This document shows, piece after piece, positions 36,093 to 42,890 of a stretch of DNA of 64,000 nt (position 1 is its first letter; each line of letters starts with the position of its first letter). Source of the stretch: Vasconcelosia minhoensis LEGE 07310 (GTDB lineage: Bacteria > Cyanobacteriota > Cyanobacteriia > Phormidesmidales > Phormidesmidaceae); contig NZ_JADEXG010000014.1 in the NCBI RefSeq assembly GCF_015207255.1, forward strand, positions 1-64,000, read 5' to 3'. The notes beneath the pieces are model-generated. The model made no database searches. It was given only the letters and a program-made list of their open reading frames with translations, and was not told where the DNA came from. The position numbers were made by a program, and so were the translations under genes.

Positions 36093-37622
36093 TTAATCCT
36101 GGGGCTCGTCCCACTGGCCGGGGGCACGCCCGTAGAGGTCGGTGAGATAGCTGAGCTGCTCGCGAATTTTGTGGGTCAGCACCGATTCTTCAAACCGCCA
36201 TTCCCAGTTACCTTCGGCTTTTCCTGGCGTATTCATGCGAGACTCGCTGTCGCGGCCTAAGAGATCCTGGAGCGGTATTACGGCTTGTTTGGCAACGGAA
36301 CCCAGGGCTAGGCGGATCATCGACCAGTGGACGGTCTCCGGGTTGAAGGCACCGATGTAGGAGGAAAGACGCTCTTTTTCATAGTCTGTCCCATTTTGAA
36401 ACCAGCCCACGGTCGTGTCGTTGTCGTGGGTGCCGGTGTAAATGAGGAAATTTTCACCGACGTTGTAGGGCAGGTAGGGATTGCGGTGGTCCGAACCAAA
36501 GGCAAACTGGAGGATTTTCATGCCGGGAAATTCAAACCGGTCCCGCAGCGCCCCAACTTCGGGCGTAATCGTTCCCAAGTCCTCAGCCAGAAAGGGTAGC
36601 TTTCCCAGCTTCGCCTCGACGGTTTCAAAAAAGGCGTAGCCTGGCGCTTCCACCCATTCGCCGTGGATGGCTGTATCCTGGTCGCCGGGAACCGCCCAGT
36701 AGGACTCAAAGCCGCGAAAGTGGTCAATCCGGATCAGGTCGTTGTAGTCTAGCTGCGCCTGAATGCGCTGGAGCCACCAGCTGAATTCGGTTTTTTGGAG
36801 TTCTTCCCAGTTATAGGTGGGGTTGCCCCAGAGCTGCCCGGTTTCGCTGAAGTAGTCCGGCGGCACCCCGGCCATCGTAGACGGTTTCAAGGTGTCCAGA
36901 TCGAGCATGAAATTTTCTGGGAAGGCCCACACGTCTACGCTGTCGTGCGCTACGTAGATCGGCATGTCGCCCACAATCTTAATGCCGTTTTGGTTGGCAT
37001 AGCGCTTCAGGTCAAACCACTGGCGGCAGAACTCAAACTGCATGTACTTGTGATAGAAAATCTCGGGGGCGAGCTCTACCCGCTTGCGGTCTAGGGCGTC
37101 TGGTTCACGCCGCGCGATCGCGCTTTCCCACTGGCTCCAGCTAGCACCGTTCTGCTCGCCCTTGATCGCCATAAACAGGGCATAGTCCTCCAGCCAGACG
37201 CTCCGCGCTTCGCAAAATTGGCTAAACGCGGTCTGGGTTTCGCTGTCGGCCCGATCCTTAACCCGCTCTGCGGCCTTCCGCAATCGGCCCAGCTTAAACG
37301 GGATCACCCGGTCAAAGTCTACGCGCTCGTTGGGGAAGGGCGACTCGATCAGCAAGTCTTCCGGATCTAGCAGCCCATGGGCCTGAATCGTCTCCAGGCT
37401 AATCAGCAGCGGGTTGCCCGCCATCGAAGAGTAGGACATGTAGGGCGAATTGCCATGGCCGGTCGGCCCCAGGGGCAAAATCTGCCACAGCTGCTGCTTC
37501 GCCTCAGCTAAAAAGTCAATGAATCGATAGGACTGTAGGCCAATATCGCCAATTCCAAAGCGCCCAGGGAGAGAGGTCGGATGCAAAAGAACGCCGCTGG
37601 TCCTGGCTTGAGTTGAAGACAT
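36093..37622 (-). CDS. malQ: 4-alpha-glucanotransferase (GH77)
   Basis: This disproportionating enzyme rearranges alpha-1,4-glucans in glycogen and maltodextrin metabolism. The 509 residues include [22 protein letters not shown] (start), [40 protein letters not shown] with the nucleophile Asp, [32 protein letters not shown] with the acid Glu, and [14 protein letters not shown]. Length and motifs are standard for the short bacterial/plastid D-enzyme. The ATG at 37622 is used. It is divergent from the NUDIX gene. Confidence 0.95.
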
Positions 37623-37706
37623 AAATTAAGAAGGGTTTGCCGCCGAATCCTATCGACTTTAACACGGTTGTTTGGAGGGATAATCTGCTTTTGGAAAGAA
37701 TGCGTC

Positions 37707-38144
37707 ATGAATTACCGTAATCCTGCCCCGACGGTGGACCTGATTATTGAAATGCGCGATCGCCCCCACCGACCCATCGTGCTGATCGAGCGGCACAACC
37801 AGCCCTACGGCTGGGCCTTACCGGGTGGCTTTGTGGACTATGGCGAAGCGGTCGAAACGGCAGCAGTCCGAGAGGCTGAGGAAGAAACGGGCCTGACCGT
37901 CACCCTGATCGAACAGTTCCAGGTCTATTCAGACCCGGCCCGGGATCCGCGCAAGCATACCCTCAGCATTGTCTTTATCGCAACTGCGGTGGGAACACCT
38001 GCAGCTGGAGACGACGCTAAAGCCCTCAGCCTGTTCAACCCTTGGGAAATTCCGACGAAACTTTGCTTTGACCACGATCAGATTCTTCAGGACTACTGGC
38101 GCTATCGTCATTATGGCATCCGTCCCCAGTTGAGCATGAATTGA
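37707..38144 (+). CDS. NUDIX hydrolase
   Basis: The 145 residues from the ATG at 37707 ([29 protein letters not shown]) include an intact Nudix box, [24 protein letters not shown] (about 50-73, GX5EX7REUXEEXGU). The sequence [15 protein letters not shown] resembles ADP-ribose or dNTP pyrophosphatases of the NudF/MutT group. It probably hydrolyses a nucleoside diphosphate derivative; the substrate is uncertain. It is followed after 61 bases by ridA on the same strand. Confidence 0.87.
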
Positions 38145-38205
38145 GCAGTTGACCGCTGAGGCAGCTGAAGGGCGATAATGTGGCTGACCTTCTTGATACC
38201 CCACT

Positions 38206-38592
38206 ATGACCCGTCACATTATCCAAACTGACCAGGCTCCCGCCCCTGTCGGCCCTTACAATCAGGCCATCGTCGCCTCGGGTGAAATGATCTTTGTTGC
38301 CGGGCAAATTCCACTGGATGTGGCAACCGGCCAGATCGAAGGCAGCGACGCCGCCGCCCAAACGGAAAAAGCAATCCAGAACCTGGAAGCGATCCTGGCC
38401 GCCGCTGGCGTTAGCCTGGCTAGCGTGGTCAAGACCTCCGTTTTCCTCAGCAATATGGACGATTTTGGCGCGATGAACGGCGTCTATGCCAAGTATTTTG
38501 GCGATCTAGATGCCCCGGCTAGAGCCTGCGTGGAGGTGTCACGGTTGCCCAAAGATGTGCTGGTCGAAATTGAGTGCATTGCGGTGAAGTAG
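38206..38592 (+). CDS. ridA: RidA family reactive-enamine deaminase
   Basis: RidA hydrolyses reactive enamine/imine intermediates produced by PLP enzymes. The 128 residues have the family start APVGPYNQAIVASGEMIFVAGQIPLD, a central TEKAIQNLEAILAAAG, and the signature end PARACVEVSRLPKDVLVEIECIAVK, which includes the catalytic Arg (PARACVEV). The length is typical. Its stop is followed within one base by the putative promoter of the downstream DAHP synthase leader. Confidence 0.93.
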   Translation: MTRHIIQTDQAPAPVGPYNQAIVASGEMIFVAGQIPLDVATGQIEGSDAAAQTEKAIQNLEAILAAAGVSLASVVKTSVFLSNMDDFGAMNGVYAKYFGDLDAPARACVEVSRLPKDVLVEIECIAVK

Positions 38593-38621
38593 TTGACGTT
38601 TTTGGTGGCCCCTGTTACATT
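38593..38621 (+). promoter_or_regulatory. Candidate promoter of the DAHP synthase leader
   Basis: TTGACG (38593-38598, five of six to the -35 consensus), a 17-base spacer and TACATT (38616-38621, four of six to the -10 consensus) would start transcription near 38628. That is 30 bases before the first leader peptide. It directly follows the ridA stop codon. Confidence 0.5.
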
Positions 38622-38657
38622 GCTGAAAGCAAAGCATTTTTCGGGCATTTTTGGGTC

Positions 38658-38714
38658 ATGCAGAAATCAACCCGCCGATTTTACTTTTGGTTTAGCCCGG
38701 TTCACTGGAGGTGA
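38658..38714 (+). CDS. Aromatic leader peptide 1 (18 codons)
   Basis: ATG to TGA encodes MQKSTRRFYFWFSPVHWR: five consecutive aromatic codons (Phe-Tyr-Phe-Trp-Phe, 38679-38693) and a later His-Trp. Six of 18 residues are Phe, Tyr or Trp, the hallmark of ribosome-sensed amino-acid attenuators such as trpL and pheL. It is followed immediately by alternative hairpins and an intrinsic terminator and lies upstream of the first enzyme of aromatic synthesis. No obvious Shine-Dalgarno sequence precedes it, which is common in cyanobacteria but lowers certainty. Confidence 0.7.
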   Translation: MQKSTRRFYFWFSPVHWR

Positions 38715-38777
38715 GCCCCATTTTGCATGGGCTTCCAGTGAACCGCAGAGATAGCCCTCTGCGGTTTTTGCTTTTTT
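38698..38777 (+). terminator. Attenuator 1: antiterminator stem and intrinsic terminator
   Basis: Terminator: CCGCAGAG (38743-38750) pairs perfectly with CTCTGCGG (38757-38764) around ATAGCC, followed by TTTTTGCTTTTTT (38765-38777). Competing stem: CGGTTCACTGGA (38698-38709) pairs perfectly over 12 bases with 38734-38745 and so captures the first three bases of the terminator arm. The left antiterminator strand overlaps the end of leader peptide 1. A ribosome reaching the stop codon would mask it and allow termination; one held at the early Phe/Tyr codons would leave it free. Confidence 0.7.
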
Positions 38778-38824
38778 AGCCCGCTTTTCCCCTTTACGCT
38801 TTACTGAATTCAAGCCGACGGCAA

Positions 38825-38881
38825 ATGACGACTCTAAACTGGCAATTTGGATTTTTTTACGCCCCGCCAAGCTCTGGGTAA
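38825..38881 (+). CDS. Aromatic leader peptide 2 (18 codons)
   Basis: ATG to TAA encodes MTTLNWQFGFFYAPPSSG, with Trp6, Phe8, Phe10, Phe11 and Tyr12. It has the same length as leader peptide 1 and lies 48 bases after the first terminator's T-run. Its last three codons (Ser-Ser-Gly, AGC TCT GGG) contain the antiterminator strand of the second attenuator. It is in no frame with ridA or the DAHP synthase. No clear Shine-Dalgarno sequence was seen. Confidence 0.7.
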   Translation: MTTLNWQFGFFYAPPSSG

Positions 38882-38933
38882 ACGGTCGCTATGCCAAAAC
38901 GACTTGCCCGGAGCCCCAAGCTTCGGGCTTTTT
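38871..38933 (+). terminator. Attenuator 2: antiterminator strand and intrinsic terminator
   Basis: Terminator: GCCCGGAGC (38906-38914) pairs with GCTTCGGGC (38920-38928; one G-U pair) around CCCAA, followed by TTTTT (38929-38933). Antiterminator: GCTCTGGG (38871-38878), inside the last codons of leader peptide 2, pairs with CCCGGAGC (38907-38914; one G-U pair), which is nearly the whole left arm of the terminator. A ribosome stalled at Trp6-Tyr12 (38840-38860) leaves this strand free. A ribosome at the stop codon covers it, so the terminator forms. Confidence 0.75.
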
Positions 38934-38995
38934 CATGAGCTTTCAATTATTCCAATTCTTCTCAAATACCCTAAAACACCCCTCCGGAGACTCCC

Positions 38996-39859
38996 ATGCA
39001 AGACGCCCAGCTCGCAGCCAAATCCCATCCCCAGCACCGTACCGAGATTGCCCTGACCGACAGCATCAGCGTCGGTGGCGAAGCCCTGTTCATCATTGGT
39101 GGTCCCTGCACAGTCGAAGACATGGCCCAGATGGAAACGGTCGCCACACACCTGCTGAATGCGCCGGTGCAGGGCCTACGCGGCGGCGCATTCAAGCCGC
39201 GCACCTCGCCCTACAAATTCCAGGGGCTGGGTGAAGCTGGGTTAGAAATTCTGGCAACGGTGCGCCAGCGCTATGAGCTGCCGGTGGTGACTGAGGTGAT
39301 GGCCATTGACCAGATTGACGCCGTTGCGGCCCATGCCGACCTGCTCCAGGTAGGCAGTCGCAATATGCAGAACTATGACCTGTTGAAAGCGCTCGGCCAG
39401 GCAGGCAAACCCATCCTACTCAAGCGCGGCCTCGCGGCAACCCTAGAAGAATTCATCATGGCGGCTGAATATATCCTCAGCCACGGCAATCCCAACGTGG
39501 TTCTCTGCGAGCGCGGCATTCGCAGCTTCGACACCTATACCCGCAACGTGCTCGACCTGGGGGCCGTTGTCGCCCTAAAGCAGATTACGCATCTGCCGGT
39601 GATTGTTGACCCCAGCCATGCTGCCGGCAAGCGCGAACTGGTGCCCGCCCTGGCCCGCGCCGCCGTTGCCGCCGGGGCCGACGGCCTGATTGTGGAATGC
39701 CATCCCGAGCCCGAAGCCTCAGTTTCTGACGCCCGTCAGGCGCTGTCGCTGCCGGCGATGGTTGAGCTAGTCAACAGCCTGCGACCGATTGCGGCGGCGG
39801 TGGGACGCCGCGTTCCTGAGGCGACTCGACTGCCTGAGCGCCAGTTGATTACGGTTTAG
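38996..39859 (+). CDS. aroF: 3-deoxy-7-phosphoheptulonate (DAHP) synthase, type I beta
   Basis: This is the first enzyme of the shikimate pathway, joining phosphoenolpyruvate and erythrose-4-phosphate. The 287 residues form a catalytic barrel: GGPCTVEDMAQ, GGAFKPRTSPYKFQGLG, LLQVGSRNMQNYDLL, KPILLKRGLAATLEEF, PVIVDPSHAAGKRELV and GLIVECHPEPEASVSDA hold the PEP and metal ligands. It has no chorismate-mutase or ACT regulatory domain, which is consistent with control at the transcript level. A GGAG (38986-38989) precedes the ATG. The 403-base leader carries two aromatic leader peptides with paired attenuators. Confidence 0.93.
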   Translation: MQDAQLAAKSHPQHRTEIALTDSISVGGEALFIIGGPCTVEDMAQMETVATHLLNAPVQGLRGGAFKPRTSPYKFQGLGEAGLEILATVRQRYELPVVTEVMAIDQIDAVAAHADLLQVGSRNMQNYDLLKALGQAGKPILLKRGLAATLEEFIMAAEYILSHGNPNVVLCERGIRSFDTYTRNVLDLGAVVALKQITHLPVIVDPSHAAGKRELVPALARAAVAAGADGLIVECHPEPEASVSDARQALSLPAMVELVNSLRPIAAAVGRRVPEATRLPERQLITV

Positions 39860-39986
39860 ACAATCCGATCATTGTGAAATCTGCACAGGTTATGGAGCGA
39901 AAGACTGGAGCGCCTTACCTTGAATTTTCCCACCGGGATTCTTAGGATGCGGTCAGGCTAATCGTTCTCTTCAGCCTAGGGATTCT

Positions 39987-41162
39987 ATGCAGACGCACTA
40001 TAAGTACATCGTTCTGGGCTGTGGCGGCATTGGTAGCGCGGCCCTCTACTGGCTTTCGCGGCGGGCCGGCGCAGAGGTGCTGGGAATTGAGCAGTTCCCC
40101 CTGTTCCATTTTAACGGCGGCTCTCAGGACTATTCTCGGATTATTCGCCTAGCCTACCATCAGGAAAAATACGCCCGGCTCACGCCCTATACCTACAAGG
40201 CGTGGGAGACTATCGCTGAAGAGTCCGGCATTTCCCCGGTCATTCGTACCGGCGGCGTGCAGATTGCCTTTAAGGACAGCCCCCACCGGCAAATTGTCGA
40301 AGACTATGCTGAAGCGATGGATCGGGCCGATATTCCCTACGAGCGGCTGGATGGAGATGGATTGCGCGATCGCTTCCCCCAATTCCAACCGCAAGCAGAC
40401 GTCGTTGCGCTATACCAGGCCCAGACTGGCATCGCCGATCCCTCCCGGGGCAACGCGATTCACGTTTCCCTGGCTCGGGGCTACGGTGCTAATATTCTGG
40501 ACCATTGCCCGGTGATTAGCATTCAGCCTGACCCCAGCGGTGGCGCTCTGGTCAAAACCGAACAGGGCGCGTTCACTGCCGAAAAGCTGGTGGTCACGGC
40601 GGGAGCCTGGACGAACGAGCTGCTGGCCTCCGTCGGTATGAGCCTGCCTCTCACAATTACTCAGGAGCAGGTAAAATACTACGCTACGCCCCACCTCAAG
40701 GAATTTACCATAGGCCAGTTTCCCATCTTTCAGTGGAAGGACGAGGCCAGCTACTACGGCTTCCCGATCTATGGCGAAGTCGCCACTAAAGCCGCCATTG
40801 ACGCTTCAGGTGACGTGGTGACGGCTCGCACCCGCAGCTTTGAGGCCAACTCCATCCGCGAAAGCCAGCTGGATGATTTCCTGGCGGCCAACATTCCCAA
40901 CTTCGTCGGGCCGAAGCGCTATACCAAAACCTGCCTCTACACGATGCCCCCGGATCGCGATTTTGTCATAGACCAGCTGCCGCAGCATCCCCAGATTTGG
41001 CTCTGCGTTGGCGCGGGTCATGCCTATAAGTTCGCCAGCCTGCTGGGTCAGATTCTCAGCGACCTGGCGATTGAGGGCGCCACGCCCCACGACATCTCAC
41101 CCTTCCGGATCACCCGCCCGGCTCTGACGGAGCCCGATTTTGTCCCGGCCCTGAGAATCTAG
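39987..41162 (+). CDS. solA: N-methyl-amino-acid oxidase (SolA/monomeric sarcosine oxidase family)
   Basis: This flavoprotein of 391 residues oxidises N-methylated amino acids. The FAD motif YIVLGCGGIGSAALYWLSRRAG is followed by GGSQDYSRIIRLAYH, the typical SRI(I/F)R(L/Y)AY active-site strand. CLYTMPPDRDFVIDQLP carries the Cys that holds FAD covalently in the family, and VGAGHAYKFASLLGQILSDLA closes the fold. Sarcosine, N-methyltryptophan and related amines are known substrates; which one applies here is unknown. The next gene, a PucR regulator, begins 94 bases later on the same strand and may control it. Confidence 0.87.
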   Translation: MQTHYKYIVLGCGGIGSAALYWLSRRAGAEVLGIEQFPLFHFNGGSQDYSRIIRLAYHQEKYARLTPYTYKAWETIAEESGISPVIRTGGVQIAFKDSPHRQIVEDYAEAMDRADIPYERLDGDGLRDRFPQFQPQADVVALYQAQTGIADPSRGNAIHVSLARGYGANILDHCPVISIQPDPSGGALVKTEQGAFTAEKLVVTAGAWTNELLASVGMSLPLTITQEQVKYYATPHLKEFTIGQFPIFQWKDEASYYGFPIYGEVATKAAIDASGDVVTARTRSFEANSIRESQLDDFLAANIPNFVGPKRYTKTCLYTMPPDRDFVIDQLPQHPQIWLCVGAGHAYKFASLLGQILSDLAIEGATPHDISPFRITRPALTEPDFVPALRI

Positions 41163-41255
41163 CCCAGAATTTCGTTCAGAACGGCAGCAGAACAGAAATA
41201 GCTGCTGACGGCATAATAATCAGTAATCTCAAGCCGTTTGCCAGCCGCTCTGCCC

Positions 41256-42890
41256 ATGCTGACCGTTCGTGAAGCCCTAGAATTCCCGGTATTCGCCGAG
41301 GCTCGGCTAGTGGCGGGGGCGGCGGGGTTAGACCGAGAAATTCAGTGGGTGCATGTGGTAGACCTGGTTCATGCCCACTATCAGTGGCAGCGCCAGGGGG
41401 TTCTGCTGCTGACGACCGGTCTGGGCCTGCACCAGCAGCCCGAACTTCAAGAAACCTTCATTCCAAAGCTCAATCAGCTGGGATTTTGCGGCCTGGTGCT
41501 GAGCGTCAGTCACTATTTCGACCAGGTGCCCGAGCTGATGCGGCAGCAGGCGGATGCGCTGGGTCTGCCGATTATTGAAACCTCGCCCGAGCTGCTCTTT
41601 ATTCAGGTTACCGAGGTCATCCTCAATCGCCTGGTCAATCAGCAGCACGACCTGCTCCAGCAGTCGGCCCAGCTGAGCCAGCGGCTTACTCAGCTAGTCT
41701 TGCAGGGGGCTGGCCTGAGCGAGCTGACCCAAACCTTGGCCGCTTTGCTGCACCGATCCATCACAATCGAATCGTCGCGGTTTCAGGTACTGGCGGCAGC
41801 TCAACAGGGTGAGGTCGATCCGGCCCGCAGCCGCAGCGTCGAACAGGGCCAGACGACCCGCCAGCTAGTAGAGCAGCTCACCCAGGCCGGAATTTATACC
41901 CAGCTGCTAAAAACGATGAAGCCGGTACAGGTGCCGCCGATGCCCGAGCTGGGAATGACGATGGCCCGGATCGTTGCGCCGATTATCGTGAAGCGGGAAA
42001 TCCATGGCTATATCTGGATGATTGCCGGTCATGCCCCGCTGACGCCGCTGGATGAGCTGGCCCTGAGCCACGGGGCGACGGTAGCCGCGCTGATTTTATT
42101 TAAAGAGCAGTCGGTGCGGCAGGCCGCGATCGCGCTTCAGGGCGACTTCTTTACAAGATTACTCAATGAAGAGGCCGGTTCGGTCGCGCTGCAAGAGCAG
42201 GCCCAGCAGCTTCACTATCGGCTCGACCGTCCCCATCAGGTTTGGATCATTCACAGCACCCAGGCCCAGGTTGCCGACTCCTTAGAGAAGCCGATCCGTC
42301 ACTGGCTAGAGCAGCAGCGGCAGCCGTTTTTGCTTTTTCCCCGCGATCGCGGCTGGGTCGCTGTCGTGGAATGCGAAACCTCCCAGCAGGGACTAGCACA
42401 GGCGACTGCAATGGCAGAGTCCCTGGCCAGGGCAACGCCGCTCTTAGTCGGCATCGGCGACGTCAGCCCGCCCGCTGCGGTTGGAAATATCACCCTCCAG
42501 TCCAGCTATGAGCAGGCCCAGGAAGCGCTGCATATCGCGATCGCCACCGGGCAGCAGCAGGGCGCGATCGCCTTTCACAACCTCGGCATTCTCCATTGGC
42601 TCTACCGCCTTTCGCCCCAGGAGCGGGCCGTTAATTCCTACCTAGCCCAGCTCGAAACCATTTTGGCCTACGACCGCAAACGTAACGGCAATCTGCGAGA
42701 AACCCTGGAAAGCTATCTCGACCACGGTGGCTCGCTAGCGGAAACGGCGGCGGCTCTGCATATTCATCGCAATACTCTGCTGCACCGCCTGGAGCGGATT
42801 GAGTCGCTCTGTCAGGTCAGTTTGAAAGAGCCCATGCAGCGGCTGAATTTCTACGCTGCGATCAAGTGCGATCGCCTCCACCGGCCCTGA
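41256..42890 (+). CDS. PucR-family transcriptional regulator
   Basis: The 544 residues from the ATG at 41256 (a TTG at 41238 adds six) comprise an N-terminal PucR sensor domain (MLTVREALEFPVFAEARLVAGAAGLDREIQWVHVVD.., about 1-125), a central GGDEF-like/CdaR region and a C-terminal PucR helix-turn-helix (NLRETLESYLDHGGSLAETAAALHIHRNTLLHRLERIESL, about 470-510). PucR/CdaR regulators often activate purine or amino-acid catabolic genes. Its placement right after a sarcosine-oxidase-like gene suggests local control of amine oxidation, an inference. Confidence 0.87.
   Translation: MLTVREALEFPVFAEARLVAGAAGLDREIQWVHVVDLVHAHYQWQRQGVLLLTTGLGLHQQPELQETFIPKLNQLGFCGLVLSVSHYFDQVPELMRQQADALGLPIIETSPELLFIQVTEVILNRLVNQQHDLLQQSAQLSQRLTQLVLQGAGLSELTQTLAALLHRSITIESSRFQVLAAAQQGEVDPARSRSVEQGQTTRQLVEQLTQAGIYTQLLKTMKPVQVPPMPELGMTMARIVAPIIVKREIHGYIWMIAGHAPLTPLDELALSHGATVAALILFKEQSVRQAAIALQGDFFTRLLNEEAGSVALQEQAQQLHYRLDRPHQVWIIHSTQAQVADSLEKPIRHWLEQQRQPFLLFPRDRGWVAVVECETSQQGLAQATAMAESLARATPLLVGIGDVSPPAAVGNITLQSSYEQAQEALHIAIATGQQQGAIAFHNLGILHWLYRLSPQERAVNSYLAQLETILAYDRKRNGNLRETLESYLDHGGSLAETAAALHIHRNTLLHRLERIESLCQVSLKEPMQRLNFYAAIKCDRLHRP

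Follow-up and report, generated by a model that had tools for sequence, protein, structure and literature searches.

The window analysed here is the whole 64,000-nt stretch of Vasconcelosia minhoensis LEGE 07310 (contig NZ_JADEXG010000014.1, positions 1 to 64,000 of the forward strand). It contains a DAHP synthase gene, aroF, whose leader of about 400 bp is, as read from its sequence, composed of two successive units, each formed by a small frame rich in Phe, Tyr and Trp and a transcription terminator (Table 1). A RidA-family gene lies 5' of this leader (window positions 38206-38592), and an N-methyl-tryptophan oxidase-like gene and a PucR/CdaR-type regulator are found 3' of aroF (39987-42890).

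Table 1. Features of the aroF leader and its gene (window coordinates)
Feature	Position	Strand	Basis
Sigma-70-like promoter TTGACG-17-TACATT, candidate for the leader transcript	38593..38621	+	Pattern scan
Leader peptide 1, MQKSTRRFYFWFSPVHWR, 18 codons + stop (38712-38714)	38658..38714	+	ORF; aromatic coding kept in relatives
Aromatic run FYFWF of peptide 1	38679-38693	+	Translation
Antiterminator 1, 5' strand, within the last codons of peptide 1 (Val-His-Trp)	38698..38711	+	Pairs with 38732-38745
Antiterminator 1, 3' strand; 38740-38745 common to the left arm of terminator 1	38732..38745	+	Folding, covariation
Intrinsic terminator 1: stem 38740-38767, then T-rich tract	38740..38777	+	Scan, folding, covariation
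Leader peptide 2, MTTLNWQFGFFYAPPSSG, 18 codons + stop (38879-38881)	38825..38881	+	ORF; aromatic coding kept in relatives
Antiterminator 2, 5' strand, Ser-Ser-Gly codons into the stop codon	38871..38880	+	Pairs with 38905-38914
Antiterminator 2, 3' strand, doubling as the left arm of terminator 2	38905..38914	+	Folding, covariation
Intrinsic terminator 2: stem 38906-38928, then T tract	38906..38933	+	Scan, folding, covariation
DAHP synthase gene aroF (AroF-type, class I-beta core without ferredoxin-like domain)	38996..39859	+	NF006421, TIGR01361, PF00793

Anatomy of the leader and the gene it precedes

A first-pass annotation of this DNA had described two separate 18-codon aromatic frames before aroF, each followed by an intrinsic terminator (38743-38777 and 38906-38933), and both frames and both hairpins with their T tracts are found where expected. 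A simple scan detects six terminator-like sites in the 1 kb around the leader, against 1.3 in shuffled sequences. When folded alone, the terminator hairpins reach -17.9 kcal/mol (terminator 1, z -7.1) and -17.2 kcal/mol (terminator 2, z -4.1), and the antiterminator hairpins -28.6 kcal/mol (antiterminator 1, 14 bp with an inner 5-bp stem, z -4.8) and -21.9 kcal/mol (antiterminator 2, 10 bp, z -3.7). Each antiterminator pairing overlaps the left arm of its own terminator. Both pairings proposed in the annotation are real and grow on inspection, from 12 bp (38698-38709/38734-38745) to 14 bp and from 8 bp (38871-38878/38907-38914) to 10 bp. A third Phe-rich start, MSFQLFQFF at 38935, had already been suspected of being fortuitous; it has no counterpart in the relatives inspected and is probably due to chance. 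Rfam covariance models of attenuators, T-boxes and riboswitches gave no match at E values up to 1 in the region 37000-41000.

Of 78 orthologs, 42% have a promoter-like site with a score of at least 9 ahead of peptide 1, compared with 12% of shuffled sequences; TTGAC followed by a 17-bp spacer is a common form. Such sites show no excess over shuffles between unit 1 and unit 2 or downstream of unit 2 in these orthologs. As the enrichment is found before unit 1 only, a single transcript most likely spans both gates. Shine-Dalgarno-like motifs precede aroF in 64 of 84 loci, peptide 2 in 18 of 83 and peptide 1 in only 4 of 81, and the stretch upstream of both peptides is poor in G. Initiation at peptide 1 must, therefore, be non-canonical.

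The protein encoded by aroF scores above the cut-offs of NF006421 and TIGR01361 and, in Pfam, matches PF00793 together with a NeuB cross-match only, the ferredoxin-like domain PF18152 being absent. The first-pass annotation had read the gene as the first committed step of aromatic synthesis, lacking a regulatory domain. The second DAHP synthase of the genome (L166) possesses PF18152, and no aromatic leader was found upstream of it; the isozyme without the ferredoxin-like domain is thus the one placed under the tandem leader, and attenuation may stand in for allosteric control of the aroF product. The gene of this paralog (L166 1073-3157, G000:C54) encodes 694 residues; the ferredoxin-like domain is N-terminal, and the protein continues at its C-terminus into a long extension, apparently EboA-like, that has no family match. 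The gene overlaps a trpD-like gene on its 5' side and, on its 3' side, a gene for a TatD-like hydrolase.

Conservation of both units among orthologs

Eighty named relatives of the DAHP synthase, supplemented with further loci from whole genomes, were collected, and the 700 bases upstream of each gene were inspected. Once near-identical leaders had been removed, 86 loci remained (DAHP synthase identity 62-78%). Both units are present in 83 of them, and the other three (L004, L041 and L070) have unit 2 only. The automatic procedure picked both peptides in 79 loci, and inspection added L040, L054 (whose contig is cut inside unit 1), L064 and L073. The peptides follow two types, ...YFYFWF..VHRx in unit 1 and ...WFYGFYFWPRxSSG in unit 2, and in 75 of 79 loci each of the two frames encodes all three of Phe, Tyr and Trp. 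Counting frames of 12-26 codons that start with ATG and hold at least five aromatics in seven residues, at least one is found in 83 of the 86 leaders, against 1.0% of dinucleotide shuffles, and at least two in 59 leaders, against none of 4300 shuffles. The reverse strand has no such frame in any of the 86 leaders.

At the aromatic positions, codons that differ by one base from the most frequent one still encode an aromatic residue in 88 of 90 cases (unit 1) and 63 of 71 cases (unit 2), against an expected 2/9 (22%) for random changes; the counts, like those of base pairs below, are non-independent because the sequences are related by descent. Being far above expectation, these proportions point to selection on aromatic coding, and not to a by-product of U-rich RNA. 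The conservation of aromatic codons in aligned leaders, one of the checks suggested in the first-pass annotation, is therefore observed at both gates. The N-termini of the peptides vary freely, and the conserved C-terminal residues, Val-His-Arg in peptide 1 and Ser-Ser-Gly in peptide 2, coincide with the antiterminator strands.

The distribution of the units was then examined by searching covariance models of unit 1 (R1) and unit 2 (R2) in 292 genomes of the cyanobacterial phylum. R1 matches occur in 29 genomes and R2 matches in 28, always one per genome. The same genomes hold 29 aroF orthologs, 27 of which have both units; the two others have unit 1 only (L161, genome G166) and unit 2 only (L168, genome G193). 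The loci L066 and L071 also have unit 1 only. In G223 (L158), both units are present, with a divergent unit 2. A single R1 match, in G085, stands without an intact aroF, and it was discarded as a separate occurrence, being part of a decayed copy (L167 805-1160, minus strand, G085:C48) in which a deletion has joined leader unit 1 to what remains of a truncated aroF; this copy still scores with R1. No other R1 or R2 match was seen in genomes lacking an aroF ortholog, among the 292 searched with strict filters that can lose weak matches. In the genome of the window itself, R1 and R2 are each significant only at the aroF leader. By these searches, the leader units are exclusive to aroF in the 292 genomes. 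Since a few relatives have a single unit, the second gate appears to be dispensable in some lineages.

In a tree of DAHP synthases, the Obscuribacterales copies form one group inside the photosynthetic cyanobacteria, with modest support, so leader and gene may possibly have been acquired together by transfer. Two loci of one Obscuribacterales lineage (L075 and L076) have both peptides tyrosine-only in their aromatic runs (YYYY or YYYYY). Both gates seem, from these sequences, to have changed specificity together, as expected if both must read the same signal.

Competing helices and ribosome position

Alignments of orthologous leaders, A1 for unit 1 and A2 for unit 2, were used to follow the four helices. 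Antiterminator 1, an 11-pair helix in 82 sequences, has 92.8% of its cells paired and changes on both sides at 9 of its 11 pairs; it scores 0.270 for covariation, compared with 0.120 for shuffled alignments. Terminator 1, a 10-pair helix, has 94.3% of its cells paired, 6 pairs changed on both sides and a score of 0.153 against 0.085. For terminator 2, 91.1% of the cells are paired and the score is 0.250 against 0.141. Antiterminator 2 has 91.3% of its cells paired and a score of 0.230 against 0.142, values that are understated because MAFFT misaligns unit 2 of the Nodosilinea group, whose pairing strand is shifted; the three double-changed pairs of antiterminator 2 are unexceptional (64 of 500 shuffles reach three). 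Slid registers score far lower for all four helices. The covariation of both stem pairs, which had been put forward as a further check, is thus observed in all four helices. At column 94 of A1, A to G changes remain paired in the antiterminator and in the terminator.

Pairing is also more stable with a locus's own antiterminator strands than with strands swapped between loci (-22.0 vs. -18.2 and -14.3 vs. -12.6 kcal/mol), and none of 1000 permutations reaches the own-strand value. In the Nodosilinea group and the Obscuribacterales, the strands of the unit 2 pairing differ in sequence and are still complementary to their own terminators. The Obscuribacterales loci L054, L076 and L040 provide examples of such units, each with a different strand matched to its terminator.

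The effect of the ribosome was estimated with a folding model using alignment-based helices and a masked ribosome footprint. With the footprint on the first aromatic codon, the base of the terminator forms at equilibrium with a median probability of 0.41 in unit 1 and 0.26 in unit 2; with the footprint on the stop codon, these medians become 0.93 and 0.97, and single sequences vary around them. As long as the right arm has yet to be transcribed, the antiterminator has a median probability of 0.99 (unit 1) and 0.96 (unit 2) under a stalled ribosome, and of 0 when the ribosome is at the stop codon. The window's own sequence gives a clear contrast between the stalled and stop positions in both units. 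In the model, a ribosome at an early codon would free the antiterminator strand and one at the stop codon would cover it, which supports the geometry read by the first-pass annotation, the same logic twice, and answers the masking calculation it had called for. In many relatives, both terminators are predicted to be only partly displaced at equilibrium; kinetics must, therefore, matter.

A probable two-gate attenuator and its relatives

The locus combines three of the elements by which leader-peptide attenuators are recognized, namely a frame rich in codons for pathway end products (Phe, Tyr and Trp before an aromatic-pathway gene), an intrinsic terminator between frame and gene, and a mutually exclusive antiterminator whose 5' strand can be covered by a ribosome at the stop codon. 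It is very probable that the aroF leader acts as a series of two transcription attenuators, each mediated by the ribosome and each responding to charged aromatic tRNAs. From the anatomy, the codon-level conservation, the covarying helices and the strict tie to aroF, we infer translation of the peptides, stalling, coupling, termination in vivo and the serial logic. One transcript would start near 38629, and RNA polymerase would meet unit 1 first. If Phe-, Tyr- or Trp-tRNA were scarce, the ribosome on peptide 1 would stall in the FYFWF run, leaving the strand of the last codons free to pair with the foot of terminator 1 and the bases immediately 5' of it, and the polymerase would continue. With plentiful charged tRNAs, the ribosome would reach the stop codon and cover this strand, so that terminator 1 would form and transcription would end. 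A polymerase past unit 1 would then face unit 2, which has a peptide, an antiterminator and a terminator of its own and would repeat the test. The two gates would each operate by direct competition of two overlapping hairpins, and aroF would be read only with both gates open.

A logical AND or a graded response had been envisaged for this arrangement. An AND of different amino acids does not fit, all three aromatic residues being encoded in both frames in nearly all loci; as both peptides carry all three, the signal would be a general aromatic starvation read twice. Because both gates would read the same class of residues, two partial shut-offs would multiply, and repression is likely to be deeper and steeper than with one gate.

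Other readings of the leader have to be considered. It is unlikely that only one unit is an active attenuator, the other being constitutive or a decaying remnant; such an arrangement would be in line with the one-unit relatives listed above, three lacking unit 1 among the sampled loci along with those represented by G166, G193 and L066/L071, but both units are kept in nearly all loci and in 27 of the 29 genome-sampled orthologs, and each unit has its own covarying helices and its own constraint on aromatic codons. A sensor of a signal other than tRNA, in which a metabolite-binding RNA or a regulatory protein would pick the fold and the frames would be incidental, is very improbable. Strong conservation of the helices and the missing Shine-Dalgarno motif of peptide 1 would suit it, but the constraint falls on aromatic coding, the conserved folds are plain two-strand switches matching no riboswitch, T-box or other Rfam family, and the only gene to which the leader is tied belongs to the aromatic pathway.

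The conserved C-terminal residues could also suggest small proteins with a function of their own, with hairpins that are ordinary terminators separating genes. This idea is extremely improbable, since these residues are those encoded by the antiterminator strands and change jointly with the pairing partner in the Nodosilinea-type and Obscuribacterales loci, the N-termini are free to vary, and no sign of a promoter is seen between the terminators and aroF. Serial attenuation by charged aromatic tRNAs remains the preferred reading.

The enterobacterial trp and pheA attenuators rely on end-product codons in a leader, a terminator and a competing antiterminator. They have one gate each, and the textbook model adds a protector pairing. 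The aroF leader shares these three components and differs from them by its two gates, each with two overlapping hairpins in direct competition, and by the absence of an Rfam match. An aromatic leader peptide before a DAHP synthase gene is also known in Corynebacterium glutamicum, where, in the part of a review that covers the work of Neshat et al. (2014), the aroR peptide upstream of aroF contains Phe-Tyr-Phe and ribosome stalling raises transcription (PMC11802643). As described there, the actinobacterial system has one peptide and responds to Phe and not to Tyr, whereas two peptides and two terminators are found here, with Phe, Tyr and Trp in each peptide. In Acholeplasma, the uORFC-13-1 motif similarly places a candidate Phe-coding upstream frame and a terminator before the DAHP synthase gene aroF, although as one unit, with 24 representatives from Acholeplasma and environmental sequences only (PMC8632094). 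The Salmonella mgtCBR leader, with mgtM and mgtP, resembles the present one in carrying a pair of short frames and a pair of attenuators; its gates, nevertheless, respond additively to different signals (ATP and proline) and are unlike intrinsic terminators (PMC3641672). At aroF, the two leader frames are present, both gates are aromatic, each has an intrinsic terminator, and they would act in series.

Leader-peptide systems were known only in Proteobacteria and Actinobacteria before Naville and Gautheret reported them in Firmicutes (PMC2965389), and cyanobacteria were said in 2016 to lack reliable attenuation data (PMC4833913). Among openly licensed papers, no report of a tandem aroF leader was found, in agreement with the first-pass annotation, which knew of no description of the arrangement in cyanobacteria. 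The leader is likely to represent a conserved attenuator with two stages, both of which sense charged tRNAs of the same class, for a multiplicative and steep shut-off of a DAHP synthase without ferredoxin-like domain, and to be the first well-supported case of leader-peptide attenuation in cyanobacteria.

The phylum-wide comparative evidence fills a gap on attenuation in these organisms. If the mechanism holds, transcription and translation would be closely coupled at the aroF locus, making this leader a direct test case for such coupling in cyanobacteria. It also raises the question of why two gates serve one signal, on which the natural one-gate relatives bear, and it is likely to be a control point when cyanobacteria are engineered for aromatic production.
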